NCBI GenBank assembly: GCA_030692565.1
Contig: JAUYAO010000031.1
Coordinates: 62,001 to 126,000 of the forward strand
Source: Nitrospira sp.
GTDB lineage: Bacteria > Nitrospirota > Nitrospiria > Nitrospirales > Nitrospiraceae
Direction: 5' to 3'
Length of the DNA stretch: 64,000 nt
This document shows, in pieces, positions 46,563-53,019 of the stretch. The position numbers and the translations under genes were made by a program. How positions within the stretch are numbered: position 1 is the first letter of the stretch; every line of letters starts with the position of its first letter. The notes beneath the pieces were generated by a model, which saw nothing but the letters and a program-made list of their open reading frames with translations, had not been told where the DNA came from and did no database searches.

Positions 46563-46655
46563 GTTGTACCGACTGCGGCCCGCTTGATAAAGATTCGATA
46601 TCGGTTATGCGTGGGGCATGACCGGAACAATATTTTCACCTTATTTTTCATTTAT

Positions 46656-46667
46656 GGAGGTTCCTCC
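46656..46667 (+). promoter_or_regulatory. Self-complementary ribosome binding site
   Basis: The Shine-Dalgarno GGAGG (46656-46660) is followed after TT by its complement CCTCC (46663-46667), and the ATG is at 46669. A GGAG/CTCC stem with a four-base loop could mask the site. Two other genes share this plan. Confidence 0.45.
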
Positions 46668-46668
46668 T

Positions 46669-46893
46669 ATGACACGCTTCAACGGATTGATGGCCTTGGT
46701 GGCGTTCCTCAGCTTCAGCACGATGTCCACGCTCGCCCTGGCCGATGAGGATAAGAAAGAAGAGAAGAAGGACAAGGGCGGCCACGTGGTCGTGTTCGGC
46801 GACGATAAGAAGGAAGAGCACAAGGACAAGGGCGGCCATGTGGTGCTCAGCGACGACAAGAAGGATGAGAAGAAGGACCAGGGCAGCAAGTAG
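46669..46893 (+). CDS. Small exported lysine/aspartate-rich repeat protein
   Basis: A 74-residue protein with a signal peptide (about 1-26, ending LALADED) and a mature part made of imperfect tandem repeats of DDKKEExKDKGGHVV (about residues 27-42, 46-60 and 62-74). It is highly charged, with regularly spaced histidines. The ATG at 46669 has GGAGG eight bases upstream. It is transcribed away from the sigma-like gene. It may bind metal, sequester water or act as a small matrix protein; the family is not recognised. Confidence 0.55.
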   Translation: MTRFNGLMALVAFLSFSTMSTLALADEDKKEEKKDKGGHVVVFGDDKKEEHKDKGGHVVLSDDKKDEKKDQGSK

Positions 46894-47286: not shown

Positions 47287-48120
47287 TCAACCAGCCGCCC
47301 GGGAGCCGGCCGGCACCTGCTGAATCGCTCCCGTCTTCAGATCATAGACAAAGACCTGCTTCGCTTGCTCCGGCGTAACCGGCAGCAGGTTGGTGGCAAA
47401 CGACTCGAACCTGACGTAGCGGCCGTCAGCACTGATCGTCGGATTGACGCTGGCGTTGTTGGCCTGAGTCCCGTCGTTGCCGACAGACACCCGGCTGGTT
47501 CGTCCTGTCTGCCGATCATGCACGAACACGTCGATCACTCCGTTGGTGTCGCCCGAGACAAGATTCGAGGCCAAAGACTCGAAGACGACGCAGCGTCCAT
47601 CCGCGCTTAGCTGCGCCGACTGGCTGAAGTTGTTGGCCTGGTTGCCGCTGCTGTCCACCGACGCGCGCGTAGTCAGGTCCGTCATCCGGTCATGGACAAA
47701 GATGTCCCGTTGGCGATTCGTATCGTCACGCACCAGATTCGTCGCTAAAGATTCGAACACCACGACCCGTCCGTCCGGCGTGAGCGCGGGCGAAAAACTC
47801 CCGCCGTTCCCCTGAACTCCGCTGCTGCTGATGGAGACACGCACGGTTTGCTTGGAATCATTGTCGTAGACGAACACATCCGTCACCCCGTTGGTGTCGG
47901 TTGTCGTCAGGTTCGCGGCGCGAGATTCGAAGGCCACATAGCGCCGACGACCCGTGACCGGGACATCCTCCTGTCCGATCGGCCTACCGGCATCTGTTTC
48001 CGCCTGGAGCGCGCGCCCTTCGACCGGGCTTGCTGCAACGGTCTGGACGGGATTGTTCTGATTCCCGCAACCCGCGAGGGCGAGACAGCAGGCGCACAGG
48101 ACCAAAGCCTTAGCCGTCAT
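47287..48120 (-). CDS. PD40/TolB-type beta-propeller lipoprotein
   Basis: A 277-residue lipoprotein with lipobox LAGC (cysteine at residue 18) and four imperfect repeats with FESLATNLVRDDTN-like and DVFVHDRQTG-like segments, each ending with a SADGRxVxFES turn. Such WD40-like propellers (TolB-type) act as protein-binding scaffolds. Its start overlaps the end of otsB by 11 bp, and GGAAGCGGAGC precedes the ATG. Why a propeller is coupled to trehalose synthesis is unknown. Confidence 0.75.
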   Translation of the reverse strand: MTAKALVLCACCLALAGCGNQNNPVQTVAASPVEGRALQAETDAGRPIGQEDVPVTGRRRYVAFESRAANLTTTDTNGVTDVFVYDNDSKQTVRVSISSSGVQGNGGSFSPALTPDGRVVVFESLATNLVRDDTNRQRDIFVHDRMTDLTTRASVDSSGNQANNFSQSAQLSADGRCVVFESLASNLVSGDTNGVIDVFVHDRQTGRTSRVSVGNDGTQANNASVNPTISADGRYVRFESFATNLLPVTPEQAKQVFVYDLKTGAIQQVPAGSRAAG

Positions 48121-48940
48121 GCTCCGCTTCCTTGTGTGGAGTCATCGCCGGTCGATCGGCGTGCTGGCCCTGTTCCGGTGTCCGATCCAGGCGATGGATC
48201 AGAAACCGCAGGACATCTTCGATCTCCCCTTGATGCTTGATGTACAACTTCGCACGGGACCCGGCGTGCTGTCCAACCCGCACACCCATAACCAGCCCCT
48301 CCGTCAGTCCAAACACATCCTCGTCCGTCTCGTCATCTCCGATGAAGAAGAAGCCTGACTGGCGAAGATGCCGCATCAATGCGAGGGCCGCCCCCCCCTT
48401 GCCGCCTTTCCCCGGAGGCAAGAGATTGATCGATTGTTTCCCGATGACCAGACGAGGAGCCGGGCTCAGCTGAGTCAGCAGCGCCAGCACAGCCAGACGG
48501 ACGCGGTCCTGGTCTTCATGTTCCCGATAGTGCAACGTCAGTGAATACCGCTTGTCCTCCACATCAATGCCGAGATCCGCCAACTGCGGCGCCAGCTCCC
48601 CCTTGATCGCCGCTCTCCACCCGGCACAGATCCCATCGGCCCACAGGAGCGTCACCGATGGCGTCAACGGACTTTCCAACCCGTGGTTGCCGATCAGATA
48701 CGGAACGGCCCCGTTCACTCTCGGGGCCAGGTCGCTGAGCGCCCGTCCCGAGATCACGGCACAGGGAGCGCGCTTGGCCAGCTCCACCAGCCATTCATGG
48801 ATCGAGCGGGTGAGTTTGACCGACTCACGATCCGGAGAAATCTTGGCCAGCGTCCCGTCAAAATCGAAGGCGTAGAGCATCGGCCCGCCGGCGAGGGCTC
48901 TCATCGCTTCCCGTCCCTCAGGCGAGAGCAAATATATCAT
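48110..48940 (-). CDS. otsB: Trehalose-6-phosphate phosphatase
   Basis: A 276-residue HAD-family phosphatase. Its motif I FDFDGTL (D26, D28) and motif IV GDDETDEDVF are typical of trehalose-phosphatases. It removes phosphate from trehalose 6-phosphate in the cytoplasm. The ATG overlaps the otsA stop by 4 bp and the C-terminus overlaps the lipoprotein start. Together with otsA it forms the OtsAB trehalose pathway, an osmotic and desiccation response. Confidence 0.93.
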   Translation of the reverse strand: MIYLLSPEGREAMRALAGGPMLYAFDFDGTLAKISPDRESVKLTRSIHEWLVELAKRAPCAVISGRALSDLAPRVNGAVPYLIGNHGLESPLTPSVTLLWADGICAGWRAAIKGELAPQLADLGIDVEDKRYSLTLHYREHEDQDRVRLAVLALLTQLSPAPRLVIGKQSINLLPPGKGGKGGAALALMRHLRQSGFFFIGDDETDEDVFGLTEGLVMGVRVGQHAGSRAKLYIKHQGEIEDVLRFLIHRLDRTPEQGQHADRPAMTPHKEAEHDG

Positions 48941-51186
48941 GCCTGTCCTCCTGTGATCGTCCGCACATCCCTGGCCCCAGTCTGGCGCACGATGCGGGCG
49001 CGTTGCCGCATGCGGGCGGCATCCATCAGCATCCGGCCGGCCCAGCGGTACACGTTAAACTCCTGGACGATCCCGCGCATGCTGCGCATCCGCGCCCGCT
49101 GTTCGGTCGGCGCCATGGTGAGCGCCAGATGCATGGCCGCCGCGCATTGATCGATATTGTACGGATTGATGAGCACCGCTTCAGGCAGCTCCGTCGCCGC
49201 CCCGGTGAATTGGCTGAGAATCAGCACGCCCTGCTCGTCGTCGCGCGCGGCGACGAATTCCTTCGCGACGAGATTCATGCCGTCATGAAGACTGCTGACG
49301 ATGCAGAAGTCCGCGCCTCGGTAATAGACGCTGACATCCTGCGGCTCGTGATGCTCGATCCGCACTTGAATGGGGCAATAGCCTTCCCGGCCGAATCGCG
49401 CGTTGATGCGTTCCGCCGACGCCAGCACATTCCGGCTGAACTGTTGATACTCCTCGATTTTCGATCGGCTCGGGGCGGCAATCTGGACAAACGAAAAACG
49501 ACCGATCCATTCCGGCTGCAGTTCCAGTAGTCGTTCCACCGCGAGGAACCGCTCGAGGATGCCTTTGGTATAGTCGAGCCGCTCGACGCCGACGCCGACG
49601 CGATGGGTGTGTGGAAGCGTATTCAACGTGCGAATGCGGGTTTTGCACTCGGAGACCGGCGGCAGCTGCGCCATCTGCTGCCCGGGCCATGCGATAGAGA
49701 TCGGGTAAGGATTTACGGCCGTCATTTTCCCTTGATAAGAAATAGTGGAGCTGTCGCGGTCGATTCTCGTTTCGAGTGACCGGTCCACCGTCTCGATGAA
49801 GTTGCTGCAATGAAAGCGCGTGTGAAATCCGAGAATGCTGCTCCCCAGGAGCCCTTCAAGAATGTCCCGATACCAGGGACAGATGGCATAGCGCTCCGGG
49901 TTGGGCCAGGGAATGTGCCAGAAGGTGATGATCGTCGCGTTCGGCAAATGGTCGCGCACCATTTTCGGCACCAGCGCGAGGTGATAATCCTGGACGAGCA
50001 CGACCGGATTATCGGTCTTGGCCTCCTCAATGATGGCCAGGGCGAACCGCTCATTGATCTCTTTGTAATGCTGCCAGTCAGAAGAACGAAAGACTGGCCG
50101 GACGTGAGCCAGGTGGCAGAGCGGCCAGAGGCCTTCGTTGGCAAATCCATAGTAATAGCCGGCCTCTTCTTCCGCTGACATCCAGATCCGTCTGATTTCG
50201 TATTCGGGATGGTCCGGCGGTACGCGGACATGGCCCCGCGCATCAACGACCTCCCGATCGGCGGTCCCGCTGCCGTGCGCGATCCACACCCCGGAACAGG
50301 CGCGCATGACCGGCTCCAGCGCGGTGACCACCCCGCTGGCCGGCACCTGCACTTCGAGCTGCTGATCGTGCCAATTGTGAATATAGGGTTCACGGTTAGA
50401 GACGATGAGCACTTCGTCGCCCGCGAGGTGGTCGTGGAGAATGGTCTTCAGTGTGGCAGGTGTCCAGCTCATCTGGCTTTCGTCCCGCATGCGTTTGTCC
50501 GCCTCGAGATCGTGTATGAGGGCGCGAAGATCCTGGGCGACCGGATGCATGTCGGCGCCGGGCTTCGGCTCTCCGATCAAGGCGACCAAGCCTTCCCCCC
50601 GAAGCATCGACCGCACACCTGCGATCCATCCCCGCCAACTCAGATGCGCGACCAGAACCGTCACCAGTGAGATCACGCCGCCGATGACGGCGAAGAGATA
50701 AAAGAGATACCATTTGGTGTCGCTGCTACGCCGCTCGATCCAGCTCATGTCGTGGACGAGCATGAGGCGCCCCCAGTCCCTGCCGTTCCCTTCGATGCCC
50801 ACGGCGGCGACATGAACAGCCCCCTGGGAGAGACGCAGGAGGGCCGTCTGACCTGCTTTGAGCGTACTCGCACCATCACAGGATATCGAGTCGGGGTACG
50901 TGAGAGTCTTGTAGATCAATTTGCCGTCACGGTCGCAAAATCCGACGGCGTACAGCCGTTCGTCCTGAATGATCCGATGGAAGTAGTTCAGCAGCTTGGT
51001 CTTCGACTCTGTCGCCAGAAGATCGACCAGAGGACTTTCGACCATGCGGCCGATCAGGGCCGACCGGATTTCGAGATCCCGCACGAACCATTTGAGCGTC
51101 AACGTATCGACAAGAGGAATAACGGCATAAGCCAGACCCGCCAGCACCAGGGCCAGCGGCAACAGGAATCGCAGCGATAACCGCAT
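48937..51186 (-). CDS. otsA: Trehalose-6-phosphate synthase (GT20) with N-terminal membrane sensor-like domain
   Basis: A 749-residue protein: a helix at 5-27, a periplasmic domain of about 130 residues (30-157), a second helix (about 159-181), then a cytoplasmic linker and the GT20 synthase domain (about 255-725). Core motifs are [32 protein letters not shown] and [14 protein letters not shown]. coli OtsA is 474 residues, so about 245 extra residues form the membrane and periplasmic part. It makes trehalose 6-phosphate from UDP- or GDP/ADP-glucose and glucose 6-phosphate. It is translationally coupled to otsB. Confidence 0.93.
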
Positions 51187-51234
51187 CGTTCACCTCTCGT
51201 TTACATCGGACAGCAAATCGCCTATGGTGAAGGC

Positions 51235-53019
51235 ATGTATCCCTACGGCCTTGTCGGCAATTGCCAAACCTCGGCGCTGATCGGCTTGAACGGCAGCGTG
51301 GAATGGATGTGCGCGCCCCGCCCGGACAGTCCTCCGGTCTTCGGCCGGCTGCTGGATCCGGACGGCGGGCATTTTTCGATCTCGAGCCCCCTCGCGCCCT
51401 CCGGCCTCAGGTCCGAGCAGCGCTATCTGCCGAACACGAACATTCTGATCACCACCGTCACGTTGCCGAACGGCGACGCCTTCCGGATCACCGACTTCTG
51501 TCCGCGTTTCGAACAATACGGCCGTATCTACCGGCCGTCGGCCCTGTTCCGGATGGTCGAACCGCTCCAGGGCACTCCGGCGATCCGGGTCAACTGCTGT
51601 CCGGTTTCCGGCTGGGAGAAGACTCCGGTGCAACCCGTGCGAGGCAGCAACCACCTCCGCTACGAGATTCGCGGTGACGTCCTCCGGCTGCTGACCAACA
51701 TGCCGCTGACCTACCTCTGCGAAGAGATCCCGATGGCGCTGACACAGAAATTCTATTTCGCCATGACCTGGGGACTCGGCATCGAAGACGATCTCATCAA
51801 GGTCACGCACGACTTTCTGGAGCAGACCGCCCGCTATTGGCGCATCTGGGTGAAGAACTGTTCGGTGCCGCTGCTGCACCAACAGGAAGTCATCCGCTCG
51901 GCCCTGGCGCTCAAGCTGCACTGTTTCGAAGACACGGGAGCCATCCTGGCGGCCCTCACGACGAGCCTTCCGGAACAGCCGGGCGGACAGCGCAACTGGG
52001 ATTACCGGTTTTGCTGGCTGCGCGATGCCTATTTTGCGCTCACGGCATTTCATAACCTGGGCCATTTCGAAGAGATGGAAGCCTTCCTGAAATTCCTGCT
52101 GAACATTGCGCATACGCATGAACATTCCCGCGACCGGCTACGGCCGGTGTACACGCTCAGCCAAGGATTGCCGCTTCCCGAGACGGAGCATCCGAATTGG
52201 TCCGGCTACCAGAACAGCCGACCGGTGCGCAGCTACAATCAGGCCGCGGAGCACGTGCAGAACGACGCCTACGCCGAAATGATCCTGACCTTCACGCCGA
52301 TCTTCTTCGACGAACGGTATGTCGATTTGCGCACGCGAGATCTCGATGCCCTGCTGGCGCATCTGGCGAAACTGTGCGTCCGCAGTATCGGCCAGCCGGA
52401 TGCCGGTCTCTGGGAGATTCGCAACGGCTGGCAGGAGCATTCCTTCACGAATCTGCTGTGCTGGGCCGGACTCGAACGATTGGAACGGATCAAACAGGCC
52501 GGGCATCTCCCCTCCGTCTCGACCGGCCTCACGGCCGGACGCATCCAGGCGGAAGACGCCTTGCTCCGCGCCGTCCGCGAGGGAGCCGTTCGGAACGGTC
52601 CCACCGACCCCAGTTTCGACGCCGCGCTGGCCCAGCTGCCCATCCTCGGCTACCCGAATCGCCCCCTGTGCGAGTCGACGGTCACCCACATCACCCGCGA
52701 GCTGTCGCTCCGCATCGGAGGCGAGGATACCGGCTTCTTCTACCGCTATGTGCGGAACGACGACTTCGGAAAGCCGGAGGGTGCCTTCGTCATCTGCTCG
52801 TTCTGGATCGCCCAGGCCCTCGCTCGCCTGGGATGCGTGGACGAAGCACGGACGATCCTCGACCGCGTACTGACGGCGTCCAATCATGTCGGGCTGTTTT
52901 CCGAACACTTCATTCCCTCCACAAACACCCAGTGCGGAAACTTTCCCCAGGCCTACTCCCACGTCGGCCTCATCAATGCCGCGTTCGCCGTCAGTCCTCC
53001 CTGGAGCGATGTGCTCTGA
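51235..53019 (+). CDS. GH15 glycoside hydrolase, copy 2
   Basis: A 594-residue GH15-type protein with YGLVGNCQTSALIGLNGSVE at the start, the catalytic-barrel segment RNWDYRFCWLRDAYF (253-267) and GNFPQAYSHVGLINAA at the end. No signal peptide. It diverges from otsA with 48 bp between start codons, so the two share a promoter region. As GH15 members include trehalases and glucoamylases, it may balance trehalose or glycogen. Few other plus-strand genes interrupt the minus-strand run of the middle of the window. Confidence 0.88.
   Translation: MYPYGLVGNCQTSALIGLNGSVEWMCAPRPDSPPVFGRLLDPDGGHFSISSPLAPSGLRSEQRYLPNTNILITTVTLPNGDAFRITDFCPRFEQYGRIYRPSALFRMVEPLQGTPAIRVNCCPVSGWEKTPVQPVRGSNHLRYEIRGDVLRLLTNMPLTYLCEEIPMALTQKFYFAMTWGLGIEDDLIKVTHDFLEQTARYWRIWVKNCSVPLLHQQEVIRSALALKLHCFEDTGAILAALTTSLPEQPGGQRNWDYRFCWLRDAYFALTAFHNLGHFEEMEAFLKFLLNIAHTHEHSRDRLRPVYTLSQGLPLPETEHPNWSGYQNSRPVRSYNQAAEHVQNDAYAEMILTFTPIFFDERYVDLRTRDLDALLAHLAKLCVRSIGQPDAGLWEIRNGWQEHSFTNLLCWAGLERLERIKQAGHLPSVSTGLTAGRIQAEDALLRAVREGAVRNGPTDPSFDAALAQLPILGYPNRPLCESTVTHITRELSLRIGGEDTGFFYRYVRNDDFGKPEGAFVICSFWIAQALARLGCVDEARTILDRVLTASNHVGLFSEHFIPSTNTQCGNFPQAYSHVGLINAAFAVSPPWSDVL

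Follow-up and report, generated by a model that had tools for sequence, protein, structure and literature searches.

The window analysed here, 64,000 nucleotides of Nitrospira sp. DNA (GenBank assembly GCA_030692565.1, contig JAUYAO010000031.1, positions 62,001 to 126,000 of the forward strand), contains a gene for a trehalose-6-phosphate (T6P) synthase, OtsA, whose 749-residue product carries its enzyme only in the C-terminal part, and the locus raises the question of what the residues ahead of the enzyme are and what they might do. The gene (48937..51186, reverse strand) has an ATG start, and its coordinates, its strand and the completeness of its GT20 domain (profile positions 2–471 of 473) agree with the original prediction. 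The protein is organized as a first transmembrane helix (TM1), a periplasmic domain of ~130 residues, a second transmembrane helix (TM2), a linker, and a complete GT20 synthase. Fusion to OtsB was rejected as the cause of the 749-residue length, since the GT20 part ends at residue 735 and otsB is a separate gene.

That the N-terminal 182–240 residues are untranslated or a chance fusion, with the gene starting internally, is a reading to which we give virtually no chance. There are internal ATG codons at residues 47, 141 and 146 that could serve it, but dN/dS for residues 1–182 is 0.06–0.08 relative to the four closest relatives, the fusion is present in many genomes and contigs, and both the ATG and the ribosome-binding site directly 5' of it (GAGAGGTGA, 51190..51198, reverse strand) are conserved, the latter in relatives L058, L050, L045 and L057. 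With the same four relatives, dN/dS is 0.05–0.08 for the GT20 part and 0.08–0.19 for the linker, which is looser than either the N-terminus or the enzyme. These values indicate purifying selection of similar strength on the sensor and synthase parts, and argue for an otsA N-terminus that is translated and under selection. The dN/dS of residues 1–182, together with a fusion that recurs across Nitrospirota (75 of 296 genomes), excludes an internal start for practical purposes; a start near residue 240, the objection foreseen when the gene was first described, does not hold and was rejected, and to judge from these selection and conservation tests the artefact reading is already refuted.

Hydropathy reveals two hydrophobic helices, centred on residues 1–26 and 161–179, and the resulting TM1 (residues ~7–27, 51106..51168) and TM2 (residues ~160–182, 50641..50709) lie on either side of a predicted periplasmic single-Cache/PAS-like sensor domain (residues ~28–159, 50710..51105), all on the reverse strand. 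In the AF2 model, made with 52 relatives in the alignment, residues 1–257 have a pLDDT of 87.6 and the periplasmic domain is mostly above 90. Its elements are a helix at residues 2–59 that includes TM1, a helix at 62–76, a five-stranded PAS-like sheet, and a helix at 148–195 that includes TM2, and the Cache/PAS layout of a long N-terminal helix and PAS-like sheet with TM1 and TM2 either side is thus present. The helix and domain limits match the earlier proposal of two helices in the first 182 residues around a domain at about 30–157. A short basic N-terminus (MRLSLRF) precedes TM1 and basic residues (SWRGW..GVRSMLR) follow TM2, which would fit an N-in, C-in topology; sequence and prediction alike support the anchoring that places the synthase at the cytoplasmic side of the membrane, as had been suggested.

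The structures ranked highest by both Foldseek and VIA-align are extracytoplasmic sensor domains, namely those of WalK (Z 12–13), LuxQ, CitA, TlpB and DctB. VIA-align places sensor domains in the range Z 10–13 with a top Z of 13.0, including the WalK extracellular domain 4ywz (Z 12.1, 2.6 Å over 125 residues, residues 29–158) and CitA 8biy (Z 10.5), and Foldseek returns WalK at E 1.9e-7 and the LuxQ, DctB and CitA domains at E <1e-3. No Pfam model, Cache-clan models included, is matched by the N-terminus of the window protein itself, and the N-terminal profile had only chance matches among PDB sequences. Nitrospirota relatives have weak, sub-threshold matches to sCache_3_2, dCache_3 and Cache_WalK, the best Cache-clan match in any relative is sCache_3_2 at E 1.3e-8 in one member, and relatives' N-termini match models of the sensor proteins WalK (2.6e-7), CreC (1.5e-6), CztS (1.7e-5) and DgcN (6.1e-5). 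Residue R41 is invariant among relatives. Cys84 (50935..50937, reverse strand) and Cys103 (50878..50880, reverse strand) are both present in 49 of 52 relatives and both absent in the other three, a pattern that points to a disulfide and with it to an oxidising periplasmic site; the pair probably forms one. The modelled fold, the weak Cache and sensor-kinase matches and the paired cysteines bear out the original prediction of a sensor-like periplasmic domain, and no match to a known soluble OtsA extension, which would have told against it, was found. The model indicates that the periplasmic part adopts a Cache/PAS sensor fold resembling those of WalK, CitA, LuxQ and DctB.

The cytoplasmic linker (residues 183–257, 50416..50640, reverse strand) consists of a variable stretch, a helix at ~211–238, and a short conserved helix from the invariant W241. 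No other part of the protein is conserved so poorly or modelled with so little confidence, residues 190–240 having a pLDDT of 40–64 in the full-length model. No HAMP domain follows TM2 above the cut-off in 61 sequences, nor at E 0.1 in 52 members; a single sub-threshold HAMP hit (E 0.028) occurs among nine distant Nitrospirota members.

The synthase (residues 258–735, 48982..50415, reverse strand) is the sole family that Pfam finds in the protein (PF00982, residues 258–723, E=1e-115). R265, Y345, W354, D400, H424, R536, K541, R574 and D635 are invariant in 52 relatives and E643 is at least 90% conserved; the catalytic residues align with those of solved T6P synthases, which are the closest solved structures, and we take their E. 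coli OtsA equivalents to be R9, Y76/W85, D130, H154, R262, K267, R300 and D361..E369. The protein scores 398.1 bits against the OtsA equivalog model TIGR02400 (cut-off 564.85), 286 against the GgpS model (cut-off 569), and 470.6 against the highest-scoring model, PRK14501 (cut-off 634). As the TIGR02400 cut-off is missed, we class it as a GT20 T6P synthase-like enzyme and not as a TIGR02400 equivalog; the low score is what might be expected of a divergent clade. Scores below the curated OtsA and GgpS cut-offs could also mean that the enzyme makes another product, such as glucosylglycerol phosphate, or uses an ADP- or GDP-glucose donor and is not strictly OtsA, and the closest structures do include a mycobacterial enzyme with a preference for ADP-glucose (PMC11046441). 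Such a specificity is highly improbable, however, as OtsA models are matched far better than GgpS, the protein aligns throughout with T6P synthases, and the gene adjoins an above-cut-off OtsB gene and a GH15 trehalase-like gene. The donor and acceptor substrates are accordingly predicted, from structure and the otsB neighbour, to be those of T6P synthesis.

The T6P phosphatase gene otsB (48110..48940, reverse strand) scores 87.9 bits with TIGR00685 (cut-off 68.05) and matches PF02358, and its start overlaps the otsA stop (ATGA). The GH15 trehalase-like gene (TREH_N + GH15; PF00723, PF19291) is divergent from otsA, 48 bases upstream (51235..53019, forward strand), and these two neighbours fix the pathway of the synthase. 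Near otsA, otsB is found in 16 of 19 Nitrospirota loci and GH15 in eight of the 19. Among the best 80 loci of the genome scan described below, otsB and GH15 genes are near otsA in 36 and 29, respectively, of the 51 long-form loci, and in six and none of the 29 short-form loci. A lipoprotein gene with an LAGC lipobox and one PD40 propeller-type repeat (47287–48120, reverse strand) has a start that overlaps the otsB end by 11 bases; it has no match beside otsA in 120 relatives' loci searched, and was rejected as a conserved periplasmic partner. Elsewhere in the window, a small 91-residue protein that is probably secreted (46618–46893, forward strand) has lysine/aspartate-rich repeats around KDKGGHVV.

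The neighbourhood also bears on the direction in which information might flow. WalK and LuxQ sensor folds bind partner proteins, and as these folds are related to the periplasmic domain, the level of cytoplasmic substrate or T6P might alter the GT20 part and be reported to a periplasmic partner; alternatively, the protein could be a scaffold like Arthrobacter OtsA, a precedent for a second, non-catalytic OtsA role (PMC5685639). We consider either improbable, given that no conserved periplasmic partner gene was found near otsA and that the PD40 lipoprotein is absent from the 120 relatives' loci.

Searches with the N-terminal profile locate the sensor–OtsA fusion in 75 of 296 Nitrospirota genomes from many families. 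Counted among these are a frame of 207 codons that stands isolated, a hit restricted to the second half of the profile, and a weak match (E 8.5e-11). The isolated frame (G191:C8:42657-43046) matches positions 1–133 of the profile, the first half of the module, in a genome in which no GT20 gene was found; it may be a remnant, or a sensor that stands alone. When genomes were scanned with the GT20 signature of the subfamily, more than 580 stretches were obtained, of which the best 80 loci were classed: 51 are long (TM–sensor–TM) and 29 are short, with one TM helix. The hosts include Alpha-, Beta- and Gammaproteobacteria, Geobacteraceae, Bdellovibrionota, Myxococcota, Acidobacteriota, Gemmatimonadota and Patescibacteria, so that with Nitrospirota the architecture is present in at least eight phyla. 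Its distribution is patchy in one class, where only one of 190 evenly drawn genomes has the fusion. The N-terminal domain beside GT20 in other genomes, a check proposed at the outset, is therefore found in Nitrospirota and beyond, and the rarity that had been implied does not stand. That typical OtsA has no such part is true of the solved soluble enzymes, all of whose matches begin at residue 254 or later, but proteins with the extension make up a large clade of their own.

The long and short forms group as one clade (support 100/99) in a tree built from 74 GT20 domains, and the bifunctional OtsA–OtsB and soluble OtsA of Nitrospirota lie outside it. The short form, which is alphaproteobacterial (Mesorhizobium, Aminobacter, Nitrospirillum), is one branch within the long form, so the sensor was lost secondarily there with a membrane helix retained, and is dispensable in some lineages; the single-TM, sensor-less members are L062–L083, L085–L087, L089, L091, L109, L115 and L020/L021. 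Several genomes (G093, G130, G234 and others of group g10) encode both a soluble OtsA (~510–570 codons) and a membrane-anchored OtsA (748-codon frame), and two forms in one cell may have separate roles. The Nitrospirota GT20 frames of ~740 codons are of two kinds, bifunctional OtsA–OtsB and membrane-anchored OtsA, and with lengths so nearly equal, length alone misleads annotation.

The sensor-less branch favours what we regard as the main rival to sensing, namely that the N-terminus is only an anchor or scaffold: it would position the making of T6P at the inner membrane to allow channelling to OtsB, coupling to UDP-glucose users or a polar location, and the periplasmic domain would be a receptor remnant that serves as anchor or dimeriser. 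The Mesorhizobium/Aminobacter/Nitrospirillum subclade is without the periplasmic domain, yet keeps both membrane helix and synthase, and the linker is variable and flexible. A bare anchor, however, needs neither a periplasmic fold nor the invariant R41 and the C84/C103 pair that are kept across many phyla, and purifying selection on the periplasmic domain is as strong as that on the enzyme; we therefore consider anchoring alone unlikely, although far from negligible.

Sequence and model together describe a protein predicted to have two inner-membrane spans, a periplasmic Cache/PAS-type domain and a complete cytoplasmic synthase, with OtsB translated alongside. On balance we favour a receptor-enzyme whose Cache domain would let a periplasmic signal adjust T6P synthesis. 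The Cache domain would respond to a small ligand, to a partner protein, or to a change in the envelope or in osmotic state; TM1/TM2 and the linker helix would relay the response, much as they do in sensor kinases and diguanylate cyclases, and the GT20 part would change in activity or oligomeric state. The amount of T6P made would then be controlled post-translationally, without an intervening kinase or transcription factor, OtsB would turn T6P into trehalose, and the GH15 enzyme would break trehalose down. Signal binding, its transmission and its effect on synthase activity are the steps we infer, and the weak points of the receptor-enzyme reading are the variable, poorly modelled linker, the lack of a recognised HAMP, and the sensor-less 29-locus subclade. 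The broader proposal is of a widespread, undescribed class of one-component receptor-enzymes: a Cache domain in the periplasm would directly gate the making of a compatible-solute precursor, with no need of kinases or transcription, and trehalose would track the state of the envelope within seconds. This is more tentative, and we place it a little short of an even chance.

Both modules are known, and their union is undescribed in the literature searched: no account of an OtsA anchored in the membrane or fused to a Cache domain was found there, a silence that is weak evidence of novelty because few subscription papers were covered, and the word 'transmembrane' is absent from the available part of a 2024 review covering OtsA (PMC11046441). 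In known receptors Cache domains work by direct fusion to an output, and in a published survey of Cache architectures every output domain reported, other than SMP_2, was one already known in signal transduction (PMC4822843). Bacterial Cache inputs are known for kinases, chemoreceptors, cyclases and other signalling outputs, whereas the window protein and its counterparts in many phyla have a central osmoprotectant enzyme in that place. Were the coupling real, trehalose and T6P levels would be linked directly, at the protein level, to a signal from outside, and the coupling is testable in cultured hosts; since the Geobacteraceae relatives L103, L105 and L116 have the architecture, GSU2337, a T6P synthase gene of Geobacter sulfurreducens (PMC2700814), may prove a convenient member to study. 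We also note that many proteins annotated plainly as 'trehalose-6-phosphate synthase' would be membrane proteins.

Compared with known systems, the window protein shares the GT20 fold, catalytic residues and an otsB neighbour with OtsA/T6P synthases of CAZy family GT20 (E. coli 1uqt/1gz5, M. thermoresistibile 5jij, fungal Tps1), but the solved enzymes are soluble, begin at the equivalent of residues 254–285, and are without TM helices or a Cache domain. The bifunctional OtsA–OtsB proteins (PRK14501 type), also common in Nitrospirota, share GT20 and a total of ~740 residues, but their extra part is a C-terminal phosphatase with no membrane part, and they form a separate clade. The TM1–Cache–TM2 topology and fold are shared with the sensor domains of WalK, CitA, LuxQ and DctB (single Cache, sCache_3 type), but those domains feed histidine kinases, whereas this one is joined to a biosynthetic glycosyltransferase, with no HAMP above cut-off. 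The DgcN/YfiN diguanylate cyclases with periplasmic PAS domains share the plan of receptor and enzyme in a single protein, and the DgcN model is weakly matched by seven of 52 N-termini, but they make a second messenger and the window protein a compatible-solute precursor. In Ramlibacter tataouinensis the gene neighbourhood is the same, a TPP, GH15 trehalase and TPS cluster (Rta_36480-36500), and the available part of that report mentions no membrane or sensor part of the synthase (PMC3164672). A different union with a membrane device is seen in one of 396 Nitrospirota genomes, where an MscS beta-domain (PF00924, E 1.5e-11) is in frame before GT20 (L042/L142, G210:C1:76195-78348, reverse strand), the two sharing one open frame of 734 codons on a contig of 492 kb; the fusion belongs to a different GT20 branch, has a long branch in the tree, and no otsB was found near the gene. 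The tpsp-gt-msc operon of Thermoproteus tenax encodes a T6P synthase/phosphatase, a glycosyltransferase and a mechanosensitive channel, and offers an earlier example of a T6P synthase linked to an osmotic device in the membrane and dependent on a partner for activation (PMC3634074); it differs in being archaeal and in having separate genes and a channel in place of a receptor. Together, this operon and the MscS–GT20 fusion hint at more than one occasion on which trehalose synthesis became linked to membrane sensors.
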